In this document: positions 18,217 to 36,200 of the stretch, one piece after another
Layout: each line of letters begins with the position of its first letter
How positions within the stretch are numbered: position 1 is the stretch's first letter
DNA from: Sedimenticola selenatireducens DSM 17993
Lineage (GTDB): Bacteria; Pseudomonadota; Gammaproteobacteria; Chromatiales; Chromatiaceae
NCBI RefSeq assembly: GCF_000428045.1
Contig: NZ_ATZE01000021.1
Span: forward strand, 1 to 64,000
Length of the DNA: 64,000 bases
Reading direction: 5' to 3'
Position numbers and translations under genes: made by a program
The notes under the pieces: generated by a model
Database searches by the model: none
The model's input: only the letters and a program-made list of their open reading frames with translations
Told to the model about the DNA's origin: nothing

Positions 18217-20085
18217 AATCAGGCTCTGCTCCAGCCCGGCAATACAGAGGGTACGCTTGCCCAGGGAAGATCTCAGGATATTGGGATACTTCCGGGCCAG
18301 GGAAAGCAGTCTTTTCGTATTGACCACATCGGACAGGCATTCCGTCGCCTCTATCAACTCCATAATCCTGGTCCGATTATTATTGATGAAATGTTTTCCA
18401 TCCCACCGAAATCCCTGTTTTTGACTGCGCCACTGGGTCGGCAGGGGTTGTAAGGCGTCAAACGCCTTCCGCAACTCGTGCTTGTTCCAGCAATCGGCAT
18501 ATTTCTTTCGGTACCCGGAAAAAACAAATGGATGCAGACGCATGTCCAGCAAGGGGCTACGGTTCTCCACACTGGCCATCATGGCATTGCGGTCATTGTG
18601 CCATATCCATTCACCCAGGCGCCCTCCCGGCGCGATGTCATTGCACAGGACATCGGTAAAACCAAGACCCAGATCATTCAGGGGATCCGGATTTTTCGCC
18701 GACCAGATCTCCGGCGCTGGTATATTGAGCAACGGATGCAGTTGCGCCGACACGCGGGTCTTGAGGGACTGTTTGGCATTCAAATACCGGGCTGGCCAGA
18801 AGGCATCCCGAATATGTCTGCGGACATTATTGACCTTGCCGTCACAGGCATAACTCTGCTTGATCCAGGCCCAGTCACGCCGCCTCATTGCATCGCGGAC
18901 TGCCGCCTGAAACTGCCGGCCCCAATACCCGCCGAACAATTCGTCGCCACCGGTTCCGTCAAGTACTACCGGAATCCCCTGCTGGGCTATGGCCTCGTAC
19001 ATCTGCGGCATCGCCATGGCATTGCCATTGAAGGGAAACGCCTTTTCATGGTGCCGGCATACCTGCAAAAACTGTTCAAACGAATTGCTGTCGTAATCCA
19101 GTACCACGGTTTCCGCAGCCACGCCAAGCTCCTGAACACATTTTTGGGCATATTTGTAATCATCGGAGCGGCCGGTATCGCCCATGAAAATTTTCACCTG
19201 GTCCTGTAATTTCTCGCTGTAGAGCACCGACAGCAATAGCGAGCTGTCGATCCCACCCGACAACAGCAGTGCCACAGGGCGATCCGACACCAGCCGCGAA
19301 GCGACGCTGTCCCGAAGCACCTCGACCAGGTCTTGCTGCTGGTAATCTCCCGTTGAACCTGCGGGTGGATGGTGCCAGTCAAAATAGGGAGCGCCTGTCA
19401 TCTCCCACCGGCTGAAATCAAAGGTGCAGTAGTGGCCAGGCAGGATTTGAGAGATTTTCTGGAAGTGCGTCTCAGCCGAGGCGGAGGGATGCATGGACCC
19501 AAAGAGAAAATAGTCCAGCAGCGCGCTACGACGAAATTCCAGATTCAGCCCAAGATATGTCTTGATGGCGCCGATGCTGGAGGAGACGCAGAGCACCTCA
19601 TCATCGAGATAATAGAAAAGCGGCTTTTTGCCATACCGGTCGCGTGACAGGAAAAGAGCATTTCTGCCTGCATCAAACAGGCTGAATGCCCACATACCGT
19701 TAAAATCGGCCAGCGCCCCGGCGCCTCCGGAGACGACGGATCTGAGGAAAACTTCGGTATCACCCGTGGTGCGAAAATCAACACCCTGCTTTTTCAGCTC
19801 CGCCCCGATCTGCCGGTAGTTATACAGTTCTCCGTTATACAGGAACACCTTGTCCTGACTAAGGAACGGCTGATGCGAACGATCACTGAGATCGAGGATT
19901 GAAAGCCGCTGATGCCCGAAAGCGGCGTGACAGACCACCTCCCCATCGGCCGTCGGTGTGTTGAAATCCAGATAATGAACGCCTTGATCATCGGGTCCCC
20001 GATGATGAAGCGTATTCAGAGCAGCAGTGAATTTCTCTCTTGATATAGGAACCGTCTTCTGTATTACCTGAAAAAAACCACACAT
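18208..20085 (-). CDS. asnB: Asparagine synthetase, glutamine-hydrolysing
   Basis: The 625-residue protein begins Met-Cys-Gly-Phe-Phe, giving the N-terminal nucleophile Cys after Met removal. I therefore place the start at 20085, not at the upstream Met at 20157. The glutaminase domain (1-about 200) shows HHRGPDDQG and FLYNGELYNY. The synthetase domain has the PP-loop LSGGIDSS (276-282) and the conserved GTGGDELFGGY. It converts Asp, Gln and ATP to Asn, Glu, AMP and PPi. Many AsnB-type proteins in Gram-negative bacteria instead amidate surface polysaccharides or peptides, but no such genes are adjacent. Transcribed alone on the minus strand, convergent with the heme-enzyme operon. Confidence 0.9.
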   Translation of the reverse strand: MCGFFQVIQKTVPISREKFTAALNTLHHRGPDDQGVHYLDFNTPTADGEVVCHAAFGHQRLSILDLSDRSHQPFLSQDKVFLYNGELYNYRQIGAELKKQGVDFRTTGDTEVFLRSVVSGGAGALADFNGMWAFSLFDAGRNALFLSRDRYGKKPLFYYLDDEVLCVSSSIGAIKTYLGLNLEFRRSALLDYFLFGSMHPSASAETHFQKISQILPGHYCTFDFSRWEMTGAPYFDWHHPPAGSTGDYQQQDLVEVLRDSVASRLVSDRPVALLLSGGIDSSLLLSVLYSEKLQDQVKIFMGDTGRSDDYKYAQKCVQELGVAAETVVLDYDSNSFEQFLQVCRHHEKAFPFNGNAMAMPQMYEAIAQQGIPVVLDGTGGDELFGGYWGRQFQAAVRDAMRRRDWAWIKQSYACDGKVNNVRRHIRDAFWPARYLNAKQSLKTRVSAQLHPLLNIPAPEIWSAKNPDPLNDLGLGFTDVLCNDIAPGGRLGEWIWHNDRNAMMASVENRSPLLDMRLHPFVFSGYRKKYADCWNKHELRKAFDALQPLPTQWRSQKQGFRWDGKHFINNNRTRIMELIEATECLSDVVNTKRLLSLARKYPNILRSSLGKRTLCIAGLEQSLIKN

Positions 20086-20316
20086 ATCGCCAAATCCATT
20101 CCCATCACAAACGCCACCAAGGGCTGCTCGCCGATAACAAACCGGACATATTCCCACAACGTTTCTGGCAAAGCCATATCCACCACCCTACTTTCGGACC
20201 AATTGCGCACACTTTTCCCTGGATCAGGTTGATCCAGCGGAGGCACAACGCGCACCGCCTCAGCTCAACGGGGAGTTATTCTGGATCGCCGGCCCAAGCA
20301 GTGCCACTATGGACGC

Positions 20317-21132
20317 ATGATTATTTACGGCATTGATTTCACCAGCCGCCCGCAACGCAGCAAACCCATCACCTGCCTGGAATCCGTGCTTGAAGACACT
20401 CATCTCCGCGCGGGTAATCTGACCGAGTGGCGGGACTTCGCGGCATTCGAGGCCGCCCTGAGAAAGCCTGGCCCATGGGTCGCCGGGATCGACTTCCCAT
20501 TCGGGCAGTCCAGGCGATTCATCGAGACCATCGGCTGGCCGGATACCTGGCAGGGCTATGTCGATCATGCCAAACAGCTCGGACGCCAGGGCTTTCGCTC
20601 CGCACTGGATGACTACCGCAAAGACCGCCCCGCAGGAGACAAGGAGCATCGCCGCGCAACCGATATCGCCGCCGGATCCATCAGCCCGCAAAAGCTTTAT
20701 GGAACACCGGTCGGCCTGATGTTCTTTGAAGGCGCGCCACGCATCAAAGAAGCCGGTGTCACGATACACGGCCTGCAACAAGGTGACCCGCGACGGATCG
20801 TCGTCGAAGCGTATCCCGGCATTCTGGCCCGAAGCCTGATCGGTCGCCAAAGCTACAAGCAGGACAGCAAAGCCAAACAGACCCGGGAGCAATACAAAGC
20901 GAGAATGGAAATACTTAACCTCGTCAACAAAAACGGTGTCCAGCCATCCCATGGCCTGACAGTGGAAGCGCCAAACAGCCTGGCCGATGACCCCGGCGCG
21001 GATCATCTCGACGCCCTGCTCTGCGCCATCCAGGCCGCATGGGCGTGGACGAGGCGTCACAGCAACTATGGCCTGCCAACCACCATTGATCCGCTGGAAG
21101 GGTGGATCACCCATCCGACCACCAGTCCATGA
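20317..21132 (+). CDS. DUF429 domain protein
   Basis: The 271-residue protein fits the DUF429 family. It opens with an RNase H-fold-like strand containing an acidic residue (MIIYGIDFTSRP) and continues with WVAGIDFPFGQ, a conserved central EAYPGILAR and a C-terminal DDPGADHLDALLCAIQAAWAW, where the aspartates resemble a metal-binding set. The biochemical function of DUF429 is unknown; the fold suggests a nuclease or phosphotransferase. It has no operon partner: asnB is divergent and 231 bases away, and the spondin gene begins 202 bases downstream. The ATG has only a weak ribosome binding site. Confidence 0.75.
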   Translation: MIIYGIDFTSRPQRSKPITCLESVLEDTHLRAGNLTEWRDFAAFEAALRKPGPWVAGIDFPFGQSRRFIETIGWPDTWQGYVDHAKQLGRQGFRSALDDYRKDRPAGDKEHRRATDIAAGSISPQKLYGTPVGLMFFEGAPRIKEAGVTIHGLQQGDPRRIVVEAYPGILARSLIGRQSYKQDSKAKQTREQYKARMEILNLVNKNGVQPSHGLTVEAPNSLADDPGADHLDALLCAIQAAWAWTRRHSNYGLPTTIDPLEGWITHPTTSP

Positions 21133-21334
21133 TGCACCAGGCTCGGGAATATGGGCCATTCGGTCAGTGGTAACCGGAGGTCTCTACGTGACACATTTGT
21201 GATGGCAGCGTAACTCCGATGAAAAATTATACGCCCACACTCCTCTGTGCAGCATGGAAACAACCGATACCAGTGCCTTCAAACATGGAGCATACGGTCG
21301 GTGACTGAATCACCATACCGACAAGGAGACCATC

Positions 21335-22052
21335 ATGAAAAAAGTCTGACGGCCTTACTGATTTCCGCAAGCATATTAACCTCTGCGAATGTCATCGCAA
21401 GAGACCGCGAGATCAGTGTTGAAATCACCAATATAACCAATGCCACCTACTTTACCGAACTACTGGTGGCCGCTCATGACCGTAACACCCGCCTTTTTGA
21501 ACTCAGTACGGCGGCATCACCCCATCTTCAGGCCATGGCCGAGGGTGGCAATATTAATGGACTGATCGATGACCTTGAAGCGGTCGGCAGCGAATACATT
21601 GCCAATCCGGCGGCCGGACTCCTGGCGCCAGGCGCGAGCACCGAGGCAGTGTTCAACCTACCGGGAAACAACCACCGGTTCCTTTCAATTGTCGCCATGC
21701 TGCTACCCACGAATGACGGCTTCGTTGGCCTTAATGGTTTGCCAGTCCCGAAAAAAAAGGGTACCTACATCTATTACCTGCGCGGCTATGACGCCGGCAC
21801 CGAGGCAAATGATGAGATCATCACCGGTGGCGATGCACCCGGTGTCCCTGGAATCCCCGCCGATCCCGGAGGCAACACCGGGACGGGGGGCGTAGCCACT
21901 GTGGGCCCGGACCACAATCCAACCATCCATATTCACAGGGTGTGACGGGAGATAACGACCCACTGAGCGGAGACAGTGATCTCGACGCCAGAGTCCACAC
22001 TTGGCAGGGACCCGTGGCCAAGCTGGTGCTTCGGGTAGGTAATGACGACTAG
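21335..22052 (+). pseudogene. Spondin-domain secreted protein, two frameshifts
   Basis: The main open frame (about 21340-21945) encodes a signal-peptide hydrophobic core and a Spondin_N-like domain (SVEITNITNATYFTELLVAAHD, LLAPGASTEAVFNLPG, YIYYLRGYDAGTEANDEI). The strongest start, AAGGAG plus ATG at 21335, reads only Met-Lys-Lys-Val then stop; a seventh A in the A6 run (21338-21343) would join it to Ser-Leu-Thr-Ala-Leu-Leu of the signal peptide. At the other end the frame stops at 21945, but shifting one base at GGG (21938-21940) continues into the expected family C-terminus (SDLDARVHTWQGPVAKLVLRV) and ends at 22052. Both breaks are one missing base in a homopolymer. Either this is a decaying gene or the assembly has indel errors here. 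Confidence 0.7.
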
Positions 22053-22079
22053 CCCGGGATAAAACGATGCTCTTGCGAC

Positions 22080-22105
22080 AGTGCCTCGGCAATCTCCGAG
22101 GCACT
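22080..22105. terminator. Strong hairpin between convergent genes
   Basis: AGTGCCTCGG, loop CAATCT, CCGAGGCACT makes a perfect 10-bp stem between the spondin gene and the convergent phosphodiesterase gene. There is no long T-run on either side, so it may act as an RNA 3'-end stabiliser or a weak bidirectional terminator. Confidence 0.5.
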
Positions 22106-22215
22106 AAATGTTGTTCCGTTAAACGCAAATTCGGATCTTTGGCCGACAGTTATGGAGAGCCTGACCATATAGGCATCTCTCAGGGTTCAGCTGTGGGCGA
22201 GAAAATACAGCACCA

Positions 22216-23163
22216 TCATATTTCAAACTCTGCCCACAAGGGTCTGTGGTCCGCGATATGATACTTCACTGCGTTATTGAAATAGTCAGGGCCAATAGTC
22301 CAGGCGTCGGTAAAGAAAGGATCATGATCAAAATCAAAGACCCCTGAATGCCCCCGATAGGCCTCCTGCATGCCACCGGCATGGAATGCCACCTGATCAT
22401 AATCCTTGTCGCCCGCGAGATTGCTGCCCATGGACGTGGAGTGTTGCGGCAGTATCAGACGCTTGGCTTTCAACGCCTTGTAGACATTGCTGGAGTTGCC
22501 CCGAATCGGCAGGTTCAAATCGCCTAACACCAGGATGTTCTGAGAGTAGGCTCCTGCCGCCTTGTGGCGTTGATCGGCCCAACGAGCGAGCGCATAGGCC
22601 TCAAGCGCGCGCCGGTCCTGATCATAATAGGCGTGACTGCCAAAGAACAGATGGGCGCAAACCGCGGTAAACTCCAGCGCACCTGCCCGAAATGCCACCG
22701 CATAAGGGTTACGATCAAAACCCTCGAACGCACCAGAGACCCCCTTCAAACGAATATAGCGCCGATCACTCGGCGGCACCGCCACCTCCGCGGCAAGTTC
22801 CAGTCGGGTGAGCTTATCACTGTCATAGAGGAACCCCGCCCGTTCATCATTGCCGCCGATATCGGAAAGAATGACCCGATAACTGGCGGGCAGATGACTC
22901 AGTAGCAGACGCAAGTGGATCAGCGAATCAGCGATTTCCTGGATCGCCACAAGATCAAACCAGGAAATTATCTCAGCCATGAGCGCGAGATCACCATCCG
23001 TACGCTTCTGAAGACCAAAGTTCGTTAAATTCCATGTGGCCGTCAATAGCCGGTTACTGGCCTTCGGTGGGACGCCGCGCAGCGCTTTTGTTGACACCAG
23101 CGCCTGTCGTTCTGTTTCCACCGCGTAGATAAACGCGGGGTGTTCCTGTTTGTGAGGTACCAT
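22216..23163 (-). CDS. Endonuclease/exonuclease/phosphatase (EEP) fold protein
   Basis: The 315-residue protein shows the EEP superfamily motifs in order: TWNLTNFG (strand 1 with Asn), DLVAIQEI (metal-binding Glu), AVCAHLFFG (His), LVLGDLNLP (catalytic GDxN) and YHIADHRPLWAEF (the terminal DHxP motif). Such metal-dependent phosphodiesterases include DNase I-like nucleases, sphingomyelinases and inositol phosphatases; the substrate cannot be told here. There is no signal peptide, so it is likely cytoplasmic. The N-terminal about 40 residues are not part of the fold. No operon partner is evident. Confidence 0.8.
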   Translation of the reverse strand: MVPHKQEHPAFIYAVETERQALVSTKALRGVPPKASNRLLTATWNLTNFGLQKRTDGDLALMAEIISWFDLVAIQEIADSLIHLRLLLSHLPASYRVILSDIGGNDERAGFLYDSDKLTRLELAAEVAVPPSDRRYIRLKGVSGAFEGFDRNPYAVAFRAGALEFTAVCAHLFFGSHAYYDQDRRALEAYALARWADQRHKAAGAYSQNILVLGDLNLPIRGNSSNVYKALKAKRLILPQHSTSMGSNLAGDKDYDQVAFHAGGMQEAYRGHSGVFDFDHDPFFTDAWTIGPDYFNNAVKYHIADHRPLWAEFEI

Positions 23164-23799
23164 CGCTACGCCTCGAATGGATTCAATAGTCAGACACCGG
23201 GTTTAGAGAAATCCTTGCACTTCCATCATGACAGCCCGGTAATAAATCGGTGTTGTTATGGACTTTGCTTTCCAGGGCATTTTTCGAATAAAACACCCGG
23301 GATCGGCCCTGGGTCTGTGCAATGGCCCGGTTGATATAAAGAATATAGCCGTTATAGCCAACCGGTAACGCTTCCAGTCATATCTGCAACTGAATTGAAA
23401 AGCTCGCGTCCTTCACCATTGATGGGGTTACCCGGATCATTGAAGGTGTGTGATTCAAGAAATACCGGAGACATGGGTTACACATTTCCGCATTTGGGGA
23501 GACCCTGATGCACTGGAATGAGTGTAACCGGATGGAAGAGCGCCTCAGACTTGAGGCTCGATTACCCCATCCCGAACATTAAGAAAGCGCAACCTGGCGG
23601 GGCATCAAAAAGACTTCTAATGGAATTTCTCCCACTCACCAACAAAGAAACCGGACGGTAAATTTCAGATCCAAAGCAGGAGATAGCCGTTCAGACACTC
23701 CAGTAATCGATAAAAGAAAGGACCCATGAATAAACCAAGCATACGCAGATAAAGGGCGCTATCCCGGTCACCTGTTGCATGAGGGACAATCCTTTTGCA
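23164..23799. other. Non-coding stretch
   Basis: No supported gene is found in about 640 bases between the EEP-fold gene and the chemoreceptor gene. Frames are short and stop-rich on both strands. The right end holds the REP-like palindrome listed next. I see no tRNA, sRNA terminator or insertion-sequence end here. Confidence 0.4.
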
Positions 23800-23840
23800 G
23801 GAGCAGATTTATCCGCGAATTTCGCGGCTGACGCTGCTCC
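23800..23840. repeat. REP-like extragenic palindrome
   Basis: The outer arms GGAGCAG (23800-23806) and CTGCTCC (23834-23840) enclose a perfect inner palindrome CCGCGAATTTCGCGG (23813-23827). The pattern 'aGGAGCAgatttatCCGCGAA...' closely resembles the REP elements spread through Pseudomonas and related genomes, which are mobilised by TnpA-REP (RAYT) transposases. It lies 16 bases after the chemoreceptor stop and could also act in mRNA 3'-end formation. Confidence 0.65.
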
Positions 23841-23855
23841 CACGAGCCGGCTCTC

Positions 23856-25658
23856 TCAGGTTGTCAGTACAGCACCAGTTTTGAACTTGGAAGTCTCACT
23901 CTCCACCTCATTCACCGACTGAACCAATTGCTCCGCAAGTGTCAACAGGCTTTGCGATACTTCATGGGTCTTATTCGCTTCACTGCTTGCCTTGAGAATG
24001 TTATCGGCAATACGATCGGCAATCTCGTCCTGCTCATGGGCAGCGGCATTCACCTCGGTGAACTCGTTTTTCAGACTGTCGACCTGATCAACTGCAGCTG
24101 AGAGATCCTGCTCGGTAGCACGTGAAGTTTCGGTAACCTCGTTGACCATATCCTTAGTGGCCATTACCTCCTGTTCCGCCATTTCGATCTCCTTCACAAA
24201 AACACCGAGAGATTGGTTGATTGAACTGGTCAGCACCGCTGTTTCATCAGAAAGGCTACGCACTTCACTGGCGACCACTGCAAACCCACTCCCATATTCA
24301 CCTGCACGGGCGGCTTCAATAGCGGCGTTGAGGGATATGAGGTTGGTCTGCTTCGCAATTTTGTCAATCATTTCAAGTTGTGTCGCCACTTGACGTGAGT
24401 TATCGATAATGGCCTGCATACGTGCCGAAACCTTTTCGACTCGTTGAACCACCTGATCAGTGCACTCTCGGTTGTGCTGTGAACTGGTCCGTGACTGTTG
24501 CATGGCACGAACTATGTCATTTAATCCTGAATCAATGTGATTGATCGCCGCCAGCACCCGCTGCGATGAATTCTTCATCGAATCAGTCTGTCCAGCAATA
24601 TCACTGAGCTCCGCAGCAATATCTCGATTGTTGGCACTAATGGTCAGGCTTTTTTCGCCCAGTGTGGTTGCGGCAAGTTGTACACCGTGCATCCGCATCT
24701 TGATCTGTGACACGATAATATGGATCTTGTCAATAAAACGGTTGAAAAGCCGAGAGAGCAGACCCATTTCATCCTGCTTCCTGTCATTCAGTTTAAGCGT
24801 CAGGTCTCCCTCCCCCTGGGTCAGGTCATTGATGCTGTGAATCAGGGAGTAGATCGGCCGATAGATGATAAGGCGAAAGACTAACAGTACGATAATGAGT
24901 GCAGGCAACAGCACCGCAGTTATGATTATTAGAACACCAATGAGGTTTTCGTTTTTCTGCGCCACCGCGTAGCTGTTGTCCATACTGACCCGAAGGTAAC
25001 CACCCGTCTCACCTTCACGCCAGTTGGTGTGGCAGACCACACATTCTGAAGTCGCCGTCAGTCGCTGGAAAAAATGCGCTTTGTCATCTTCCATAAAGTG
25101 AGCACGTCCGGTTTCATCGAAGTCAATCGCAGGATCGATCGTATAATGACAGTCGACACAGTCATGCCCGCTTGAACGCACCGTCTCTATATGCTGTTTT
25201 GTAGATGGCGTTTCACTCGAGTCACGGACGCTCCAGTCTTCTCTCTGGTGACGGCCACGTGTCGCGTCAAAGAGCTCTCGGTTGGGATTGGACAAAACCC
25301 CATCCTTGTGGTTAAACGGCTTGCCAACGGTAACTTCACCCGACTTATAGGTCATTAATCCAGAGCGGGCGTAGAGCGCAGCGTTATCAACCTCGTCAAT
25401 TTTCGAGAAGTTATCAATTACGTGCTGGAAGGATTGTCGCTGCCCTTTGTTTATTGATTCGCTGGAATCAGCAACCAGTGTTGATAACAGCCCGTGCCCG
25501 GTTTCGACAATACGTTGCTCAAGGAGCATGTTCTGACGCTGATAGTAAATTGCAATGGACAATAGTGAGACAATACAGACACTTACACCAAGGTAGAGCA
25601 GGGCCCGAAAGAGTAGCGAGTTTGTAAGGTGAATACGTAATTCCTGGCGGGTACTCAT
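23856..25658 (-). CDS. Di-heme methyl-accepting chemotaxis protein
   Basis: The 600-residue chemoreceptor has TM1 (about 17-38), a periplasmic domain of about 200 residues, TM2 (about 239-262), a HAMP domain and a long signalling coiled coil. The CheA/CheW-binding hairpin tip is [21 protein letters not shown] (434-454 region). The periplasmic domain carries two c-type heme attachment motifs, CVDCH (167-171) and CVVCH (206-210), so it should bind two covalent hemes, as in Desulfovibrio DcrA and Geobacter heme-PAS receptors that respond to redox or O2. The gene starts 21 bases after the hydrogenase small-subunit stop on the same strand, which ties its signal to H2 oxidation. No CheR-tethering pentapeptide is visible at the C-terminus. 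Confidence 0.9.
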
Positions 25659-25679
25659 ATTTAATCTCCGCTACGCATC

Positions 25680-26606
25680 TTAAAACTTGCGTTTAATGAC
25701 CCGCGGGTCATCATGACGATGCAACATTATCTGCCGTGGAAAATGCTCACTCGCACACCCTACACAGGGATGACCGGCCTTAATGCAGGTACTCGTATTA
25801 TTGTTGTGGCCGTTTATCATGCAGTCACTACGGGTAACCACGCCCTGGCAACCAAGATTGATGAGACAGCCACTATCTCCAATGTATCTGGCGTAATGCT
25901 TCTCCTGAAAATCTGCGTAGTAATTGCAGCGTTCATGAATCGTACGCCCAAAAAAATGAATCGGTCGATGCTGCAAGTCAAGCTCAGGCAGCGTCCCTTT
26001 CATCGCATAATGCAACAAGGTGTAGACGAGATGCTCAGGTTTCATTGGGCAGCCCGGCAGGCTCACCAGAGGCTTGGCTATATTCTGCGCTGCAAGCAGT
26101 TCAGGTAAAGTCTGTACCCCGGTCTGCATACCATTCATACGCGTGACGCCACCGAACACCGAGCAAGTACCGGCAGCAACACACGCTGTTGCACGTTTCG
26201 CCATGGGTACCACCCACTCAACAAAAGGCTTGTGCCCCATCAGGCAGGCATGTGGCATCCCGACTGGAGTTGATCCCTCTACCACTAGCAGGTAGTCAAG
26301 ATCAGAATCGACAACCTGATCCAATATCCCGGTCACCTGATCACCGGTGGCCAATGAGAGATCGGGATGAAAGATGACATTGGCAAAACGGCTCAGAATA
26401 TCGAGCACTGGAACATACTCAATATCGAGAAAACTACAGGAGCAACCGGAGCAGGAGCTACCGTGCAACCAGACCAGGTTTAGTCTTTTATCAACATATT
26501 TATCGGCTGCCAGGAGATCATCAAAACTTAGAAATGAGGCCGCACCAGTGGCAATAATCGCACCATAAACCTTCTTTAATGCTTCACGCCGTGTGATTTT
26601 TTCCAT
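25680..26606 (-). CDS. [NiFe] hydrogenase small subunit, Tat-exported
   Basis: The 308-residue protein begins with a twin-arginine signal (ITRREALKK) and a hydrophobic stretch to about residue 33. The proximal cluster region is SSCSGCSCS (Cys52, Cys55, plus an extra Cys57). Other cluster ligands are seen in VAAGTCSVFGG, SLPGCPMKP, IHERCNYY, GDSGCLINLGC and CIKAGHPCVGC, so three Fe-S clusters are expected. There is no C-terminal membrane anchor, unlike HyaA/HupS, so it should be a soluble or peripherally bound periplasmic electron-transfer subunit. I chose the ATG at 26606 (GGGA 8 bases upstream); an in-frame ATG at 26615 is possible. Its gene follows the large-subunit gene, the reverse of the usual order, and precedes the heme chemoreceptor, a plausible electron acceptor. 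Confidence 0.9.
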   Translation of the reverse strand: MEKITRREALKKVYGAIIATGAASFLSFDDLLAADKYVDKRLNLVWLHGSSCSGCSCSFLDIEYVPVLDILSRFANVIFHPDLSLATGDQVTGILDQVVDSDLDYLLVVEGSTPVGMPHACLMGHKPFVEWVVPMAKRATACVAAGTCSVFGGVTRMNGMQTGVQTLPELLAAQNIAKPLVSLPGCPMKPEHLVYTLLHYAMKGTLPELDLQHRPIHFFGRTIHERCNYYADFQEKHYARYIGDSGCLINLGCQGVVTRSDCMINGHNNNTSTCIKAGHPCVGCASEHFPRQIMLHRHDDPRVIKRKF

Positions 26607-26622
26607 CGTATTCATCCCACTT

Positions 26623-28170
26623 CTAATGAACAGAACATGCCATGCACGGGTCTGTTGAACGCACAATGCGCGCCAGTTCCAGCGGTTGCTCTGGATCGGC
26701 GACCTGGGTACCAATCAACATCTGTTCAACCGCCCCCGGCCGTCCTGCCGCATCGCGCGGCGACATATTCCAGGTGGTCGGGACGATCATTTCATAATTA
26801 CTGATATAGCCCTTATCATGCGTTTCAATCCAATGCCCGAGTGCACCACGCGTCGCTTCTGTGAGACCATAACCGCGCATGTTTTTCGGCATATCCTGCT
26901 CGATAAAAGCACTCTTGTCCGGTTGCACCTCGTGCAATTGCGCCTCTAAGCGCTCAAGGATCTGCAACGAGCAGATCAGCCGTGACAGATGGCGACCCAT
27001 CACAGAATCATACTCACCCAGTCCAATATTCAATTCCCTATTGATGCCATCAATCTGACGGTTAAAATCATCATGCTGACCGCTTCGATAGGTATTGATC
27101 ACTCGCGCCGCCGGTCCAACTTCCATTACCTCACCACCATAGCGGGGGGCACGTGTCCAACTGTACTTACCATCCTTGCGCGCAATTTCCTGTTGGTATT
27201 CATCCCAATCAAGCGGTTGCAGTGTTGTCGACTGCAACGGTTTAAGGCCCGAAGAGGGTTCATTCCGATACCAACTGTGAGTGTGGTCTTCTGTAATGCG
27301 TGATAGATCCAGCGCCTGATAGTTTCCGCCGAGTGTGGCACCACCGACAAAGGCGTGGTTCTCGCCTGACGAATCGGGGAAATAGGGGAAGGTCAGAAAG
27401 TTGCCTGGGCCCTTGCCTTCATTAAAGTAGGTGGGAAATACGCTGGCCACCCCAAGCAGGTCGTTACGATACTGATTCCGAATAAAGTGCCCCACCCCAG
27501 CCAGCCAGGTCTTGTACTTATTTATCCGGTCAATGGTCGGAAGGGTAGTCACGCCACCCGCCTCAATGGCAACCGGGTGAGGTGCCTTGGCACCAAATAC
27601 TGCCACCATCTTGTGCAGATCGGCCATTATCGGAATAGCATCAAGATAACCTTTAATAGCAGAGATATTGAGCTCCTGGTCCTTCGCGTAGACACCCTCG
27701 TAACGCGGCAGAAAAGGGGCAGCCGGGAAGATCTTGCCACTATCCAGTTCACTGCGCACCCAATCCCTTAAGGTATTCAGCCCCGCGTCATTCCCGTGGT
27801 ACTTGAGAATGGCAGTGATATCGACAAAGTCCAAGGCAGAAAGGACATAGAAATGAAGCAGATGATCCTGAAGCTGATAGGCGCCAACAATCAGGTTTCG
27901 CAGCAACTGGCCATTCTCATTGGGTCGCAACCCCATGGCCTGTTCCAATGCCAGAGCGGCCGCCTCGGCATGGGCGTACGGGCAAACCCCACAGACTCGC
28001 TGGGTGACCTGTTGTGCGACACGGGCATCATAGCCAATCAGCGCCTTTTCGATACCACGAAACATGTCACCGGAGCAACGGGCGTCGGTCACGATTCGAC
28101 CATCCATGTGCGTTTCCACCCTTAGGTGGCCTTCTATGCGCGTTACCGGATCAATGACTACACGCCTCAT
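26623..28170 (-). CDS. [NiFe] hydrogenase large subunit without C-terminal extension
   Basis: The 515-residue catalytic subunit has the L1 motif RVCGVCPYAHAEAA (Cys60, Cys63) and the L2 motif DPCMACSVH (Cys509, Cys512), which supply the four Ni-Fe cysteines. The protein ends exactly at the His where maturation proteases normally cut, so no cleavable C-terminal peptide exists and no specific endopeptidase should be needed; that trait is known in regulatory HupV/HoxC hydrogenases. The small subunit, however, carries a Tat signal, as in respiratory group 1 enzymes. The start at 28170 has GAGAGGAA six bases upstream. No hyp or protease genes lie nearby. First gene of the unit large subunit-small subunit-heme MCP. 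Confidence 0.92.
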   Translation of the reverse strand: MRRVVIDPVTRIEGHLRVETHMDGRIVTDARCSGDMFRGIEKALIGYDARVAQQVTQRVCGVCPYAHAEAAALALEQAMGLRPNENGQLLRNLIVGAYQLQDHLLHFYVLSALDFVDITAILKYHGNDAGLNTLRDWVRSELDSGKIFPAAPFLPRYEGVYAKDQELNISAIKGYLDAIPIMADLHKMVAVFGAKAPHPVAIEAGGVTTLPTIDRINKYKTWLAGVGHFIRNQYRNDLLGVASVFPTYFNEGKGPGNFLTFPYFPDSSGENHAFVGGATLGGNYQALDLSRITEDHTHSWYRNEPSSGLKPLQSTTLQPLDWDEYQQEIARKDGKYSWTRAPRYGGEVMEVGPAARVINTYRSGQHDDFNRQIDGINRELNIGLGEYDSVMGRHLSRLICSLQILERLEAQLHEVQPDKSAFIEQDMPKNMRGYGLTEATRGALGHWIETHDKGYISNYEMIVPTTWNMSPRDAAGRPGAVEQMLIGTQVADPEQPLELARIVRSTDPCMACSVH

Positions 28171-28754
28171 ACATTCCTCTCTTATTATTTTTAACAATAT
28201 TTGATCAGTGTCAGGCTGTAGTGAAACAAGCATTCCTGACATTGCGAGTCTTTAGCGGTAGAACCGCGAGCGGGTGTCCATACGGAGCCGCCATTTTTTT
28301 AAACCACCAGGGGGTAAACCAACTCAATTGGATTCAGCTGATCCATTTAACAAATTCCATTACACCATCCCGGCCATTTGTATTATTTGCGATCCAAATT
28401 GCCCTTTCAGGACAATACTCGCGATCCGCCTCATGAAGGCGAATCATCGACAACCAGCATCGCTTTGCTCGTAAGGTTGACTCTTTAATAACACTGATTC
28501 ACGTTCCAAAAGAACGTATTACTCATTTCTTATTTATTCTTTATCTCATCATCGCAGGAACGATGTCGCTCAATCATTGCGTAGCGCCCTACGGATACCA
28601 ACCCATCATTTAATGACGATAACTCACCTGTTTCACTTTGGATGGGAGCAGTTGCCTTAACCATGCTTTTCAGTTCATTAATTGTCATACAGCCTTGCGA
28701 CAATGTGTGTTATGGCCTGATCCGTTACTAATAGCGAGTTCAAGATGAGCGCCG
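28171..28754. other. Upstream region of the hydrogenase-chemoreceptor unit
   Basis: No supported gene is seen. The sequence next to the large-subunit start (minus strand) must contain its promoter. A partial FNR-type half site (TTGAT at 28200-28204) lies about 30 bases upstream of the start codon, but the second half is poor. ACGTTC-CAAAA-GAACGT (28502-28518) is a perfect 6-bp inverted repeat. GCGGT-AGA-ACCGC (28253-28265) is another short hairpin. No GG-N10-GC sigma-54 promoter was found on the minus strand here. Confidence 0.35.
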
Positions 28755-29045
28755 TCATACAGGCGAAGAGTTAGGTGAAAGCCCACCGAACCGGAGGTTG
28801 GAACAATCAGTTTGGATATGACACAGAGTAGTTTTTATTAGTTGTTCACTTTTGAATGTAACCGCTGGTGATTGCGCTAAATGCGTACAAAGCCACGACA
28901 ACCCAACAACAAGAGACAAAGACACGAACAACAATTGGAAATAATTTGTCGCGTCACTTGCTGGCAGACCGCCGACAAGACTGACGATGAGCAGCAACAA
29001 AATAACCAAGAATGACTTATTACGCTCCCGCGTCCTTGTACTCAT
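28755..29045 (-). CDS. Small two-helix membrane protein
   Basis: I do not recognise this 96-residue protein. It has a basic N-terminus (MSTRTRERNK) and two hydrophobic segments, about 11-27 and 33-52, separated by GLPASDATN, followed by a polar C-terminal tail with two cysteines. AGGA lies 7-8 bases before the ATG at 29045. It is a plausible hairpin inner-membrane protein, about 585 bases upstream of the hydrogenase genes on the same strand, so co-transcription is doubtful. It could also be a recently formed orphan gene near the island junction. Confidence 0.4.
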   Translation of the reverse strand: MSTRTRERNKSFLVILLLLIVSLVGGLPASDATNYFQLLFVSLSLVVGLSWLCTHLAQSPAVTFKSEQLIKTTLCHIQTDCSNLRFGGLSPNSSPV

Positions 29046-29594
29046 TATATTTTCCTGCCTACTACCACAACATTTATTATTTTTCTGTACCCAGCTTAAA
29101 ACCAGGTTTACTTCCCATGCATTGATTACATGTTCAATTTTACTTTCATATGTAACGGCCAATCAACACGATTACTTTAGTAAAAATTATCATAGTAACG
29201 AAACCATATATGTACATGGCGAAAATTAGGTAACAAGCCGGTTTTCCGAGCATTGAACATCCCCACTAAAACAGACAGTGCATCTGAAATTAAGCACAGG
29301 TGTTTAGCTACTGTGCGGGTCTATGATCTGAAACACACACAGACAGCATCAAGGTACAATAGGCATGAGTTATGAGAAATATCAGAAATCATCAGAACAA
29401 AAGTCGGGCATATCACGACGCACTACTCTGTGGCCGAACGAGGCAATCTGATGCAGGCAACAAACGGTATGTACCGAGAAAACTCCCGCTCCCACACATG
29501 GGTGCTAAAACGAAAAAACCGTTGGTGTTTTCACACTAACCGCTTTTTGTCAGCTTTATGCAATATGACTTAGGATTTTTTGATGAAAACGAAC
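29046..29594. other. AT-rich non-coding stretch before the island junction
   Basis: No gene is supported. The sequence is AT-rich and stop-dense on both strands. At 29508-29537, CCGTTGGTGT-TTTC-ACACTAACCG followed by CTTTTTG is a terminator-like hairpin on the plus strand, with one G-T wobble. Its gene of origin is not identifiable. Confidence 0.35.
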
Positions 29595-29622
29595 AAAGGG
29601 TTGAGCCTGCGCCCAACCCTTT
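29595..29622. terminator. Terminator-like hairpin
   Basis: AAAGGGTTG (29595-29603) pairs perfectly with CAACCCTTT (29614-29622) around a 10-base loop. On the minus strand the stem is followed by GTTCGTTTTC, a moderate T-rich tail. It may end transcripts coming from the tRNA-Arg/IS remnant side. Confidence 0.5.
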
Positions 29623-29631
29623 CTTGACCGA

Positions 29632-29681
29632 AGTGTTACCTATCTCTCCGGTATAAAGTGTGACCTATGTGCTCGGTACAC
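29632..29681. mobile_element. Tandem 25-bp repeats like an IS21-type end
   Basis: Two adjacent 25-base units (29632-29656 and 29657-29681) share 18 of 25 positions, both beginning AGTGT-(T/G)-ACCTAT and containing CGGTA. Multiple short direct repeats of this ACCTAT...CCGGT type are typical of the termini of IS21-like and some IS481-like elements. No transposase gene is present, so this would be a solo end left by an excision or recombination event at the island junction. Confidence 0.45.
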
Positions 29682-29692
29682 ACCTGTTTTAG

Positions 29693-29711
29693 ATGGCGCG
29701 CCCGGAAGGAT
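29693..29711. repeat. Copy 1 of 19-bp direct repeat (tRNA-Arg 3' end)
   Basis: ATGGCGCGCCCGGAAGGAT is repeated exactly at 29839-29857, where it forms the 3' end of the tRNA-Arg fragment. This outer copy is followed by unrelated sequence. It looks like a second, shorter attachment-site scar, as if an element once integrated at the tRNA 3' end and was lost, or as if the true crossover core is these 19 bases. Confidence 0.65.
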
Positions 29712-29802
29712 GACTCGCGCTTCACGCTCTTGCTTCGGCCCTGCGGGCCTCGTCGAACCGTCCGTTTGAAGTAGGAGTTTCGAATCTGCTTTACATGCAA
29801 TA

Positions 29803-29830
29803 TAAAAAAAGCCCACCCGAAGGTGAGCTT
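29803..29830 (-). terminator. Intrinsic terminator of the tRNA-Arg locus
   Basis: On the minus strand AGCTCACC-TTCG-GGTGGGCT (one T-G pair) is followed by seven Ts. It lies just downstream of the tRNA-Arg 3' fragment and would have ended the original tRNA transcript. This shows that the chromosome-side flank of the integration is the low-coordinate side. Confidence 0.8.
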
Positions 29831-29840
29831 TAGTTTATAT

Positions 29841-29890
29841 GGCGCGCCCGGAAGGATTCGAACCTCCGACCACCTGGTTCGTAGCCAGTA
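29841..29890 (-). tRNA. 3' half of tRNA-Arg(ACG): island attachment site
   Basis: Read on the minus strand the sequence gives an anticodon stem-loop CTGG-CTACGAA-CCAG (anticodon ACG), variable loop, a complete T arm (GGTTCGAATCC) and the 3' acceptor strand GGGCGCGCC. The 5' acceptor strand, D arm and start of the anticodon stem are absent; the sequence upstream is unrelated and AT-rich. This is the standard scar of a tyrosine-recombinase element inserted in a tRNA gene: one end keeps a duplicated 3' half, the other keeps the whole gene. The full tRNA-Arg and probably the integrase should lie beyond the right edge of the window. Confidence 0.85.
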
Positions 29891-30259
29891 CATCAAAGTA
29901 GTATTTATTTATTAATCAGTCACTTGCGTCGCTTGCCCTTTTTATACCGCAGTAGACTTATCAATAACTTACAATTGAGTGTGCCTGTGATTTAGCACAA
30001 TAATAGCACAGTCCGATTGCCATCCAGATTCATCCGTTTTCCTCATTCCGCTGTTGGATCGGTGATCTGGAGCGTTAAGCCGACTGGCAGCGCTAGCTCG
30101 GCCACCCACCATTCCGGGCTTTGACTTCCAGCTGTATCCCCTCTTGCTCCTGCAGGTAATGGATCACCGCAAACAGGTTGCTCGCCTGGGGATTCCCTTG
30201 TGGACGGCGGTCTTCTCCACCCTACTCGTATATCTAGGCCCTTTGTAGTACAACCCGCT
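29891..30259. other. Element left end, non-coding or degraded
   Basis: This runs between the tRNA fragment and the druE stop. A minus-strand frame (30043-30315) has no family resemblance, and a different minus frame gives a stretch resembling coding sequence (SNLFAVIHYLQEQEGIQLE) with no start. I read this as remnants of a broken gene, not identified. No integrase or excisionase gene is present at this end. Confidence 0.35.
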
Positions 30260-33200
30260 TTATCTGTCAGGGGCTTGTGGCAAAATGGTAAGCACGGTTG
30301 GCCATGCTCCTGCATTCAACATATCGAGTACTTTATATTTCTCAATCATTCTCTCTATCTGCTGATCGTTCTTCAGATTGAAGTCAAAGCTTCTATCGCT
30401 CCTGTATGGGCCGCGCGGTTGCCAATATCCCATACCCTGATCTAAAATCATTTTACTCTTGGCACCCGATTCCCATTGAATAATTAACTCACGGCTATGT
30501 TGCATCTCGTATGGTCGTTCAATGAGTTTGACATCAACATCTACACGCAACACTCTACCTACCCACTCCCTTAGGATTGAATCTTGAACATTCCAGTCGA
30601 TCCAGTCATGTTTAATCTCGGAGCCAAACCTAGATGATGAAGAACGCAATGTCTTGAGCTCAATGGCTTTTAGCTTGTCATTGGCAAAAACAGCCAAGAA
30701 GTTACCTAGTAACAAAATCGACCATGGTGATTTTAAGAATCTGTCTGAGTAGCTAATTGATACCGCTCTATCCGACTCAACCATCTTGTGCAGCTCTGGG
30801 GCTTGTGTTCGAAGCAGCTCACTCATCCTATTGGGTAGAGTACGAAGAGGTCCGTTCAGCTCATTCGTAACCTCAACGACCTTAGCTCCAGCCTCTACAA
30901 CATCCCACGAAGAGATATCTAAAGACTCTATTGATAATGGCTCGACACCATCCGATGAGACCCAAACTGTAGTACTACCTGACTTAAGCCAATGATCCCC
31001 AGGATTCGAGGAACTACTGTCATTGGAAAACAGCGACTGTGAAGAGGAGCCTTTATTGATTTGCACTGTGACTGGAACTCCAAATGAATCCCATTTTTTA
31101 TCAAATTCTAATACTTGAACACCAAGACGCCAAAGTGTGACCAGAGCCCTCTTAACATCCTCCGGAAGTGATTCTGCCGAATCAACCCCCAATGCCACAC
31201 GGAGTTTGTCGACAATTGCCCAGGTCAATACATTGTCACGGAACTGTGTGGAGCCCAAATCCCACTCAAGAGGGTCGCCACGGAGAGCTATCAATATGGA
31301 ATCCGCCCCTTTATTTATAGCAGAACGGACAAATCGGATTGGCTCATAGGAGCAGTAGGTGGCATTCGGGACCGCTTCAAATATGTGCGGCAACACAAGA
31401 TAAGAAAGTAAATCACTTTCTGAAAGCCACCGAAGAGCATTTTTCCGGTCGAGCTCCTCTAGCTCAACTCTACTATCCTGACTCGCAAGACAATGCGAGC
31501 AAACGTTCTCACAATTTACCGGGCAAGAGAGCTTGCTAGATGCCTTTCGAATTAGCTGAACCACATCTGAAAGCCCTGCAAGCACAAATCCGGCCCCACC
31601 ACTTACCTGATCGTAGAGCTGAATTACCGTCCTTCCTGCGCCAGTATCAATATCCTTATCAAGACGAACGCTAAAGCCCATTTCTGTACTGGCCACACCG
31701 AGAACTTCTGCAATAACATCGCGGATAGCAACAGCCAGCGTCATTGCGATTATCTGATGTTCCGGGCTATCAGAAAGCCACGTCCCTGTTTTTGGACTAC
31801 GTAGGCATAGCTCAAGAACATCTGTACGTGTGTGATAACCTAGATATACATTTGCCTTCACGTTTGAGCCAGAACAGTCCTTTTCCTTCTTACTACCGGA
31901 TGCGCCACCTACAGGACGATGATATTTATCTGGCAAAAGTGCTGGTGGTGCATCACCGTTACTCAACATCGACTCAGCGCGTCCGCATTTTAGGCAAACC
32001 GCATAACCTCTCTCATTCTCCCCTGATGAGTGATAAAAAACACTCCCTTCGTGCCCAAACCGAACAAACCCGCATCGCTCATCTGGTAGTGCGATCATTT
32101 CACCATCCAGATGGATCCGCGGACGTTCTACGCGAATATACTTTTGTGATGAAACGTCATTAGTGGTTGACTCATAAAAATCTGTGAGAAAGCCAGAAGG
32201 TCGCAACACATCTTTCTTTTCACTTAATGGGATTTCATATGCACAATGTGTACACGTCAAATCGGAGCTGTTCGAATAGGCATTTTCTACGATGCCGGAA
32301 GCACCACAATTCGGGCATCGCCATGCCACATCAAACTTTTGTGCTTCATTAATTGCACCGCCAGAGTGCCAATGCAGACTCACCCCAGCCGATCGGTACA
32401 CACGCCCATCGATCACGACCTGTGCTCCTGGGGCATACTCCCTTATTGCAATATCAAGACCACGAGTTGGTTGCTCTTTCGAAGTGAAGATATTGTCCTC
32501 ACGCAGCAAACCGTCCTTATGACGTGTCTTGTTTATAAAGTCTTCAATATTGTAGGTATTGAGGTTAACGACATTTGTTGGGAACCCATATCCTGGCAAG
32601 AATGCCTTGGCCGCCAAGTCACGAAGTAGATACTCGTTTTCATGGCGTTCAAGCTCTAATTCCAACGCCCTCTTATAGGGTTCATCTTTTGCTGATGACA
32701 TCTTGCTTCTAAGGTTATTCAATTCAGTAACCCAGCGTTCCTGAAGCTCTACCAGGTAGAGTAATGACTCTTCAGCAATTGATAAAACAGACCGACCAGC
32801 AAGCCCCGTGCCTCGGACAAGCGTTCTCACAACAACCTCCACTTCCTCTGCGCAGTTACCCAGCCAGCCCACAAACCTAGTGCATACTGAGTCTTCCCCA
32901 CCATAGAACCAGCTTACAGTCAGCTTGGTATTATCAGACGAGTCTGTTTCTTTGTTTAGGTAGATAGCCAGCAACAGTGAATTAACATGTCTCTGGACAA
33001 TACGATCCGAGCTAAGGGTAATACTCGGAGCTGGTATTGCCGTTACAAAGGACCAATCTGGCTGTGAGAAAACTCTCTGATTATGCGGATCTGCCTTACA
33101 CAGCGTATAGGCAATCGCGCGCGCCTCACTTCTCCGACCTGCCCGTCCTGCGCGCTGCAGATAGTTCGCCGGGTGAGGTGGCACATTATTCATTACTACT

Positions 33201-36200
33201 GCAGAAACTCCTCCGATATCGACCCCCATTTCCATGGTCGTCGAACAATTAAGAACATTTATTCGACCTTTCTTAAAAAGATCTTCATAAGTGTCGAGCT
33301 TTTCTGCTGACTGCTGAGCCGAGTGCTCAGCCGTACGGTAATAAAATCCACCTTCAACAGTCCTATCACAGAGATCCGTCCATAGATTCTCGTTTCTCAA
33401 GCGAATAACATCCTTGTCTTCAGCAACCTGAGTGCGGATCTGTCTGAGCTTTGACACGCCACTACCATCTGGTCTGAATGAGAATAGGGCTGGAAGATCA
33501 ACTTTAGTACACCGATAGTCTCTGGATAACAGTTTACTGGGCAGATAAGGAGTCAGGCCCCTAAAGGTTGTGTCGAACAACCTGTGTGTTAGCGGGCATA
33601 CCCATCCAGTCCCTGGGAGTGAGAAGGTCAAAGTAGTCAAATTCAGCGAATACCCTGCATCCATCGGTTCTAGGATGTGCACCTTGATTAAATCCTGCCA
33701 TGCTTCCTTGAGCCAAAGATTAATCTTATCCCGATCTGTACTGATTATTCGATTAAGGCTACAGCCAAGCTCGAGTAGTTTTACAGGGCGACTGGGGGTG
33801 CCAGACCTGATCTGCGGCCAAACCCTTACTGTTGTACTCTCAACGACATCACTTTCTGGGGGATATAGCGTCTTAGAAGTAAATCGGCTCCCCATCCACC
33901 TTTGCATAGTTGGATCCAAGCGGAGGAAGGTGTTTTCCCTAATATAGAAGTCAAGGACGACCTTAAGAAAATCCCTCCAATCCTGGAGGGTGAGATTTGT
34001 TTTCTCAGATAAATAAGAACCCTCCGTAGGTATGGCTGTTGTTTCTTGCCAGTACATAGGGGGCTTAATAACCTTATCGAGGCCTGCATAACCGATGCCA
34101 ACCAGGCCTAGTGTTTCGGTACTATTCTGATTCTTCGGACGGCGTGCATATTCTCTGGCAAGTAATAATCTTGCCATCGCTGCACCTGCTTCATTACCAG
34201 AAAACAGTTCAGGATTAGAATATTTATTGTAATCTAGGATGGACTGAGAGATATCTTTTGTTGTTGCAAGAGCAGAAACCATATCTGACCATGGTATTTC
34301 TGCGCGATCGATTTCAGTTGAACCATCCCTTCCTGCCTCTGCTGTTTTTCTTACACTCTCAGCCTCTTTGGCCAAACCCATGGCTTTGAGGGTTTCTGCC
34401 TGCTTCAACAACTCCTCATAACTTACTGTTGGAGTATTTTTTGGTTCAAGATCACGTTTTGACTGTTCATTTCTGAGAACTTCAAACACCAATCCACGCA
34501 ATCTTGAGCGTTCTGCTTCTTGCTGCATGCGCACAGCCATGCGGGCCGTGCCTTGGCGGCTGTCGGTGAAGGTAATTAGCTTCCTTCCTCGCCCGGGAAG
34601 CTCCTCTGGTGACTTACCGTCACTATCCGACTTAACTGGGTCAGGGCAAAACTCCAATACAGTCGGTACTGCATTAGCCACATAGAAGGGTGCTCCCAGG
34701 TAACACTTCCTGAGAAAATCCTTCCCTCTCACACCAGTATTTTCACAACATCCACATTGTGAGGTTGTCTCTGACGAGATATGGATAGATATACTACGCC
34801 CTTGGTTAACCCTACCTAACCCAAGGGAGTCGACATCAAGGGCGATTTCTTGATACTCGTCATGATTACAGGTGGATGGCGCCAAAACCACCTTCTGAGC
34901 CCCATACCTTCCTCCTATATGACCAACCTCCTCAAGAAGCTGACTATCTTCTTCATTAAGATCATATGTAAGAGCGAATTCATCTCCGGCATAGGGGCTA
35001 CGTTGTTGCAATTCACCGCCAATATCCTCAGCAACTAAATGAGGTGTCTGACACTCCGTGCAGAACCCTACCTCATAGACAGGTGAGTGGCATTCACATC
35101 TGGAACGTTGTGTGACATAGACATTGCCAAAAGGCCAGTTTTCAAACGAATCTGATTTTGCGGTGCAGTCTGGGTCTACACAAGACCAGATCCCATGCAG
35201 CATCCTTTGAAACATATGGATACGTAACTTAAGGAATGGTACTGTATTTTCAGAGACCTGGGTTCCAGTCATGACATCCAGCCACTCTAGGACTTCTCGT
35301 TGCCTCTGGGCTCGTGTTTCCCCCTTCAACCCATCCCTAGCTATCTCTACCAACGCATTAAGGCCTTGTGGTGTAGCACTGTTAACAACAGCATGCCTGA
35401 GTTTTTGTGCTACTGGATTTGACGCCAGAGCTGCAAACCTTTGAGTTGAAACGACCTCATTGGGATCAATACCCCGAATTTCATCTAATCCCAGGTTGTT
35501 AGTACTGCTGTTAGCCTCTATGTCAGGGATGACCCTGCTTCCACTGATAACCACAACTTGATCAACAGTCACCCCAGCGAGGTCTGCAAGATACCGTCTT
35601 AGTCTTTCATCCGCCTTGTCGTCGGCTATGGTTGCCGACGTTGCAATAAAGCGTATTTCACTGGGGTCTTTACCAAAGGCTTGGACGACTCTTCGCAACA
35701 GTAGGGACATCTCAGCTGCCTGGGAACCGATATAGGTATGCGCCTCATCGAGCACAATCCAGCGCAGCGACCTGGAGTCACGTGATTTTTGGATAATTGG
35801 GCTATCTACCTGCCTAACCAGCATATACTCCAGCATGGTGGCATTAGTCATCAGAATTGGGGCTGGCTCAGCCCGCAGCAGTTCACGCGAAAGAATCTGG
35901 TTTGGACAGGTTTTCTGCTGCTTCCTTACTTTACTTTCGCGCTCTTCAGTTTTGCCGTTATATAAGCAGAACCTTACTCCATCACCGAACCGTTTTGTCC
36001 AAGCGTCTAGGCGTTCCTGCTGAGAGTTTATAAGGGCATTTAACGGATAGAGAAACAGTGCTCGAACCCCAATCAGTGGCGACTGAATCTGCTCATACTC
36101 CCGGATCAAGTCATCCAGAATGGGCACCATAAAACACTCAGTCTTACCAGAGCCCGTGCCCGTGGTTATTACGGTTGACTTTGGTTTCTCATCTAACAGT

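Follow-up and report, generated by a model that had tools for sequence, protein, structure and literature searches.

Which function is encoded by an operon that combines a [NiFe] hydrogenase with a chemoreceptor that has haem-binding motifs? This question is raised by a stretch of 64,000 nucleotides from Sedimenticola selenatireducens DSM 17993 (contig NZ_ATZE01000021.1, positions 1 to 64,000, hereafter called the window). It contains, at positions 23856-28170 of the minus strand, a set of three genes, which encode, in this order, a hydrogenase large subunit (LSU), a small subunit (SSU), and a chemoreceptor of the methyl-accepting chemotaxis protein (MCP) type. A sequence-only reading had proposed that H2 oxidation reduces two haems of the MCP and thereby drives signalling. 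The comparative analysis revealed that, judged from the sequences compared, the combination of hydrogenase and sensor is a real, conserved unit across several phyla, and the operon probably encodes a hydrogen chemoreceptor.

First, the three genes are described, all of which lie on the minus strand. The LSU (515 aa, 26623..28170) was matched by the Pfam model PF00374 (NiFeSe_Hases) with an E-value of 8.8e-136, and its ATG is preceded by GAGAGGAATGT, which resembles a ribosome-binding site. The first ligand motif is RVCGVC (Cys60 and Cys63, 27982..27999), the second is DPCMACSVH (26626..26652), and the stop codon follows immediately after it, i.e., there is no C-terminal extension. All four Ni-ligating cysteines (60, 63, 509, and 512) are conserved without exception in the 11 LSUs aligned, in the contexts RxCGxC and DPCxxC. 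The next gene encodes the SSU (25680..26615; Pfam Oxidored_q6 and NiFe_hyd_SSU_C), which starts either at the ATG at 26615 or at a second in-frame ATG at 26606. It has a Tat-type signal peptide with the twin-arginine motif RREAL (26577..26591). An RR motif was present in all 40 SSU frames listed, which contain upstream sequence, and for some of them (e.g., L009, L013, L082, L161, and L162) it is possible that the first matched RR lies outside the signal. The absence of a membrane anchor was confirmed, because no hydrophobic C-terminus was found by Kyte-Doolittle analysis: the maximum for the 40 family SSU frames was 1.16, compared to 1.53 for the anchored control HoxK.

The third gene encodes the MCP (600 aa, 23856..25658; Pfam MCPsignal). 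Two hydrophobic stretches at residues ~14-39 and ~237-273 enclose both CxxCH motifs, and the periplasmic diheme sensor domain was placed between them, with the aid of the alignment A1 introduced below, at residues ~41-237 (24948..25538). The haem-binding motifs are CVDCH (residues 167-171, 25146..25160) and CVVCH (residues 206-210, 25029..25043). A HAMP-like stretch follows at residues 267-313 (24720..24860), with 24.3 bits just below the Pfam cut-off of 25, and the signalling domain at residues 395-556 (23991..24476) was matched by PF00015 with 2.2e-31 and 109.5 bits (cut-off 34.6). The intergenic gaps comprise 7 bases between LSU and SSU (16 if the second ATG is used) and 21 bases between SSU and MCP. 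The gene content given in the sequence-only reading was thus correct, while its spacing of 8-21 bases was not; its term "fused" is adequate for a predicted co-operonic arrangement, but not for one polypeptide.

An LSU scan gave 11 loci from named genomes, i.e., from a gammaproteobacterial metagenome-assembled genome (MAG), a Methylococcaceae MAG, five Chromatiaceae (Thiocystis violacea, T. minor, an uncultured Chromatium, Thiospirillum jenense, and Thiorhodococcus mannitoliphagus), a SAR324 bacterium, a Campylobacterales bacterium, a deltaproteobacterium, and an unclassified bacterium (L018). At nine of the 11 loci the hydrogenase or its remnant is accompanied by an adjacent gene for a protein that shares the periplasmic domain of the MCP. 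Two cultivated strains, Thiocystis violacea DSM 208 and T. minor DSM 178, carry the intact set. Ten periplasmic sensor domains were aligned to give the profile A1, which has 31 invariant columns (the start Met counted), both haem motifs among them. Matches to A1 were found in 4/369 genomes of the window's class, 7/298 genomes of the phylum of the Campylobacterales locus, 4/345 genomes of the phylum of the deltaproteobacterial locus, 4/52 genomes of the phylum containing the SAR324 locus and L018, and 7/146 genomes of the family of T. minor; each set contains at least one genome already known to carry the sensor, as a profile source or as the search centre. In total, 28 diheme sensor genes were detected in 27 genomes, and the window genome has a single copy of the domain. 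Both CxxCH motifs were present in all 27 aligned diheme homologues, and a chance occurrence of the pair in the MCP was ruled out for this reason.

The next question was whether sensor and hydrogenase are linked. As proposed in the sequence-only reading, the triad was sought in other genomes, and 21 of the 28 sensor genes directly adjoin both an intact LSU and an intact SSU gene of the clade; 24 adjoin one or both genes or remnants of them. The same was true for 13 of the 16 sensors that were found solely via the sensor search. Co-occurrence was analyzed in 770 genomes of three sets: 16 contain both, two only the sensor (G503 and G377), one only the LSU (G439), and 751 neither (Fisher p 4e-30). 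When the genomes reached by the LSU scan, seven in number, are excluded, the counts are 10, 1, 1, and 751 (p 7e-21); both p values ignore the relatedness of the genomes. The LSU cut was placed at the score gap, i.e., at least 690 bits in the Campylobacterota and at least 830 bits in the deltaproteobacterial phylum. In the T. minor family it was at least 940 bits, plus a fragment in G1125 (549 bits over 304 positions); G1210 (487 bits) was excluded from the count for this family and proved to be of the one-haem type described below, at a contig edge.

Order and orientation of the genes vary. At L013 and L015 the sensor gene is on the opposite strand, at L018 it is upstream, and in the uncultured Chromatium the SSU adjoins the sensor, the LSU being on a different contig. 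Thiospirillum jenense has retained LSU, SSU, and sensor on three separate contigs (L077, L091, and L119, the sensor being at L091). An association by mere proximity was ruled out, because the set survives altered order and orientation and co-occurs unlinked in one genome. These results also bear on the first alternative explanation, namely that a soluble periplasmic uptake hydrogenase feeds the cytochrome c pool and the MCP is a general redox or energy-taxis receptor from the same operon, perhaps with several electron donors. We consider this explanation unlikely. The almost one-to-one co-occurrence of sensor and hydrogenase argues against it, as does the fact that both were kept together through rearrangements and through the exchanges of output domains described below.

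The LSU C-terminus also speaks against an uptake enzyme. All 24 intact clade LSUs that were checked, including the sensorless L117, end at the His of the second ligand motif, and the window LSU, with zero residues after it, lacks the cleavable extension that is a criterion for group 1 uptake enzymes. In contrast, 15-20 extra residues are present in the uptake enzymes examined, i.e., in L001-L003 of the window genome (15 residues), HoxG, and five enzymes of Campylobacterota. The extension is also missing in HoxC, the H2 sensor of Ralstonia (ending DPCMVCTVH), and in a separate HoxC-like LSU encoded elsewhere in the window genome, which points to a separate device for transcriptional H2 sensing there. 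A few [NiFe] hydrogenases are described as naturally lacking the extension (PMC8229454). In LSU trees, 24 clade members formed one branch with 100/100 support, apart from HoxC; the two-frame LSU L093 and the remnant L019 were omitted, and 23 of the LSUs were labelled sensor-linked, including L011 and L017, for which the sensor is on another contig. Membership in the regulatory group 2b (HupUV/HoxBC) was ruled out by the separate 100/100 branches, and a [NiFeSe] hydrogenase by the Cys codons and the open frame through DPCMAC, which leave no selenocysteine.

A sister set with only one haem was found in the deltaproteobacterial phylum, in the next LSU score band (433-564 bits). Of the 43 LSU places listed, 30 were taken as loci, five more were fetched, and eight were left out. 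Within the 30 loci, four of which are of the diheme type, a receptor recognized by A1 accompanied 14 of 14 LSUs without the C-terminal tail compared to 0 of 16 LSUs with it; two of the 14 receptors were found in widened loci, and for the extension-bearing LSUs flanks of up to 1.5 kb were searched. These extension-bearing relatives have no haem receptor within the flanks, and the SSU precedes the LSU in 13 of the 15 loci in which an SSU was seen. Altogether, 16 loci pair similar hydrogenases with receptors of the one-haem type (type B), and a single CxxCH, in the form CxRCH, was present in fifteen widened loci and in L118. The MCPsignal domain was found in 13 of 13 scanned type B receptors, an MCP hairpin was seen by eye in L164 and L165, and L118 is truncated where its contig ends.

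An alignment of the 27 diheme and the 16 one-haem receptors showed that haem motif 2 is common to both types (27/27 and, as CxRCH, 16/16), while a stretch of ~55 residues with haem motif 1 is missing from type B. In the window MCP the extra segment lies approximately at 25089..25259, with borders set by eye. The diheme clade is nested among the one-haem LSUs in the LSU tree, and a single clade of all sensor-linked LSUs was not rejected (approximately unbiased test, AU p 0.437), which is not a proof of it. The simplest reading of these sequences is that a one-haem ancestral receptor later gained a second haem. Both sensor types occur together in three genomes (G870, G915, and G976).

The output domains of the 28 diheme sensors were also compared. 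Twenty are MCPs, five are CheA-like kinases, one was unnamed by Pfam, and two are cut or decayed (L095 and L090). Pfam detected an HATPase in all five kinases, and an Hpt domain above or near the cut-off in L087 and L088. A CheX-like gene follows all five (L016, L086, L088, and L094 by Pfam, L087 by close similarity), and a CheY-like regulator follows four of them (L016 and L088 by Pfam, L087 and L094 by sequence), the locus of the fifth, L086, reaching the contig end. In the SAR324 sensor (L013 3567-5933), the same diheme domain is present, but no MCP or CheA domain was detected with Pfam. The periplasmic haem domain is thus the constant part, and the output is swapped, mostly within the chemosensory machinery. 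The SAR324 sensor and the five kinases with their own CheX-like and, in four cases, CheY-like genes would fit an H2 sensor with a mainly non-flagellar output, i.e., control of gene expression, pili, or biofilms via a Che-like pathway. Such an output is nevertheless highly improbable for the window operon, since 20 of the 28 outputs are MCPs and the window genome has several CheW-domain genes (nine matches).

Taken together, the part of the earlier proposal that concerns a dedicated unit of hydrogenase and haem receptor with a Che-type output is strongly supported by comparative evidence, because linkage, co-occurrence, swapped outputs, the sensor-like LSU end, and the conserved haem motifs point in the same direction. 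The covalent attachment of the haems, the activity and export of the enzyme, its transfer of electrons to the receptor haem, and H2 taxis are predictions from the sequences. In the predicted mechanism, a group-1-like [NiFe] hydrogenase would be exported via the Tat pathway to the periplasm and oxidise H2 there. Electrons would pass from the FeS chain of the SSU to the c-type haems in the periplasmic domain of the adjacent receptor, the haem redox state would act via HAMP on the receptor and alter the CheA activity, and the cells would swim according to H2 or to the balance of H2 and oxidant. The SSU has a conserved tail, which begins with FPR in nine of nine cases and has variable subsequent residues in more distant members; it could be a docking site for the receptor.

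The hydrogenase would act as a sensing module rather than as a respiratory enzyme, because it lacks a membrane anchor as well as a cleavable C-terminal extension, and a cytochrome b is not encoded next to it. In agreement with the earlier claim, no cytochrome b was found by Pfam among the neighbouring frames scanned (12452-23163 and 28758-29162), several of which had no Pfam match (e.g., 22219-23163 and 28758-29162), small frames being outside the scan. The haem domain of the receptor would be the only likely redox partner encoded with the hydrogenase. As far as the operon is concerned, the statement that its haems are the only encoded electron acceptor can be upheld; the search for cytochromes was not extended to the rest of the genome. 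Soluble group 1 [NiFe] hydrogenases likewise have neither a membrane anchor nor a cytochrome b.

Several observations weigh against a hydrogen chemoreceptor. Four sensors have no intact family hydrogenase adjoining (L084, L091, L094, and the relic L090). L084 starts 358 bases from the contig end, and its genome, G503, contains no clade LSU elsewhere. L090 has an open frame, read by eye, that starts with an LSU-like stretch. L094 is the second diheme sensor of G1125, which also has a linked one; it has the form of a CheA-like kinase with CheX- and CheY-like frames behind it (L094 6176-9241), and no family hydrogenase was found within the 17-kb locus. Thiorhodococcus has kept an intact receptor beside hydrogenase remnants only: an in-frame deletion has joined the LSU N-terminus (~96 residues) to the last ~28 residues of the SSU (L019 5929-6372). 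In G439, the opposite was found, i.e., a clade LSU (L117) without a sensor. It falls inside the sensor clade in LSU trees, and its hydrogenase is encoded in an operon-like row, preceded by genes for a molybdopterin oxidoreductase, for a 4Fe-4S protein, and for a chaperone of the NarJ/TorD type (L117 2751-8800). Therefore, the enzyme can have another partner, and a hydrogenase of the sensor clade seems to have changed its partner at least once, which favours the uptake explanation. The row itself may encode a possible H2-linked reductase.

In the genome paper of Nautilia profundicola, a second uptake hydrogenase is reported, a soluble "NiFeSe" enzyme of the periplasm that resembles those of Desulfotalea. 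It is probably the same enzyme as the sensor-clade hydrogenase, and its classification as an uptake type also speaks for the uptake explanation and against the chemoreceptor. In G417, probably this species, the clade hydrogenase adjoins a diheme MCP, which is not mentioned in the available part of the genome paper. The scans upstream of the operon are a further such point, as they revealed no convincing promoter, and sigma-54 and sigma-28 patterns were seen only at three mismatches, without a chance control. Sigma-70-like sites numbered 8 compared to 5.9 expected, and terminator-like sites 2 compared to 4.4 expected. The last point is that the sensor may bind a gas: haem-Cache domains with signalling modules show properties of NO sensors, according to PMC12889525.

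This leads to the next alternative, namely that the receptor haem binds NO, CO, or O2, that the hydrogenase just keeps the haem reduced, and that the signal is the gas in the presence of H2. Haem MCPs described as redox or gas sensors include DcrA. Others have been described in this way as well, e.g., in Geobacter. Two points argue against a gas sensor, which is very unlikely in the present case. First, the window MCP was not matched by the Pfam Tll0287-like model (PF11845) at an E-value of 1, and it also had no Cache match in Pfam; among type B receptors, PF11845 reached an E-value of 0.047, below the cut-off, in one of nine, and Mcp40H-20 matched weakly. Second, an invariant Met in 16 of 16 one-haem sensors and a His outside the CxxCH motifs in 22 of 27 diheme sensors could be the sixth haem ligands, as candidates from the alignment, and would disfavour gas binding. 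A PDB profile search with the sensor gave weak matches only, i.e., to MtrC multihaem cytochromes (E 0.006-0.009), transketolase (0.19), Tll0287 (0.43), and cytochrome c3 (3).

How does the predicted hydrogen chemoreceptor compare to known systems? [FeFe] group C2 hydrogenases are cytoplasmic. HupUV/HoxBC (HydDB group 2b) are similar in that an enzyme serves as H2 sensor and the LSU has no C-terminal extension; they differ by their histidine-kinase partner, by the lack of a twin-arginine motif at the start of HoxB, and by the lack of a haem receptor beside HoxBC, which is cytoplasmic (PMC6978683). The sequence-only reading had contrasted kinase-coupled H2 sensors with the MCP. This applies to HupUV/HoxBC, but the contrast was too sharp: HydDB lists MCPs as the putative H2-sensing route of [FeFe] group C2, and kinases and phosphatases as that of C1 and C3; [NiFe] group 2b is listed as sensing H2 by way of histidine kinases, and 2c putatively by way of diguanylate cyclases (PMC5037454). 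Group C2 thus shares the proposed MCP-mediated sensing, but belongs to another metalloenzyme family and is listed as putative.

Periplasmic [NiFeSe] and [NiFe] hydrogenases, which we take to be of the HydDB groups 1a/1b, have the closest PDB sequences, and these best matches are in favour of the uptake explanation; NF033181 was the best NCBIfam match, below its cut-off. The extension-bearing relatives described above differ from the window enzyme in that they mostly have the SSU before the LSU and show no haem receptor in their flanks.

On the receptor side, periplasmic c-type haem sensor domains are known on MCPs and on kinases, among them the Geobacter MCPs GSU0582 and GSU0935 (PMC3460858, PMC2577667). 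A second haem motif is described for Gsu0591 and Gsu0599 of Geobacter and Adeh_2011 and Adeh_3383 of Anaeromyxobacter (PMC3831638), likened here by description only. In view of these examples, the presence of two haem motifs in such a domain is by itself no novelty. Haem-Cache domains (DUF3365/Tll0287) are also periplasmic haem sensor domains, but differ in that the window MCP fails the Pfam model. Term searches of the main texts of PMC12889525, PMC2577667, PMC3831638, and PMC8396549 found no mention of a hydrogenase. Taxis to H2 gas is known from Methanococcus maripaludis, as cited in PMC4266047, in contrast to the window organism an archaeon, and H2 chemotaxis has been suspected in Oleidesulfovibrio.

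A neighbourhood study from 2025 has a table row for a cluster of 87 MCP genes in the vicinity of [NiFe] hydrogenases, on which the available part of its text does not comment. No description of the pairing of a [NiFe] hydrogenase with a haem receptor was found in the literature searched, subscription papers being mostly beyond reach, and in the same literature no bacterial H2 chemoreceptor was described beyond the putative [FeFe] group C2. H2-sensing hydrogenases, haem sensor domains, and hydrogenotaxis are known; probably new is the combination of an H2-sensing hydrogenase with a haem MCP, at a new location and with a new wiring.

The surroundings of the operon were also inspected. A defence island begins ~2 kb upstream of it, with a Druantia type III-like pair at 30260-39854 (minus strand), matched almost over the full length by the PADLOC models DruE3 and DruH3. 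At 41555-52868 (minus strand) a short prokaryotic Argonaute and a TIR-type partner are encoded, flanked by an AAA-ATPase gene on one side and by a type I restriction set on the other (HsdS, HsdM, and HsdR-like), and an RtcR-like CARF-AAA-HTH regulator (52901-54421, minus strand) adjoins the restriction genes. A TraG_N conjugation-type protein (55285-57132, minus strand) and an OLD-like ATPase/TOPRIM gene (60606-62174, plus strand) may be part of an integrative element. No tRNA was found within the window, and no Rfam match at positions 22000-31000. The sequences gave no sign that the operon is carried on plasmids, as the sensor domain had no tblastn match in PLSDB and all LSU matches there were below 60% identity. 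On the other side of the operon, at 9527-16835 (plus strand), an animal-haem-peroxidase-like protein (971 aa) is followed by weak matches to the catalase family and to Dyp peroxidases.

H2 is a central currency of sediments, vents, guts, and planned underground hydrogen stores, and the operon represents a widespread, genetically simple candidate H2 chemoreceptor, with an enzyme as the sensor and electrons in the role of the ligand. In the most far-reaching interpretation, for which the chances appear evenly balanced, it would represent a previously unrecognised class of periplasmic sensory [NiFe] hydrogenases that report H2 by reducing c-type haems of separate transmembrane receptors, have exchangeable Che outputs (an MCP, or a CheA-type receptor kinase together with CheX- and CheY-like proteins of its own) and a one-haem ancestor, and form a molecular basis of bacterial hydrogenotaxis. 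The sequences yield a rule for finding such sensors, i.e., an LSU without the extension, the LSU gene before the SSU gene, and a haem receptor nearby. If the hydrogen chemoreceptor is true, some of the proteins that are annotated as uptake hydrogenases would be sensors.

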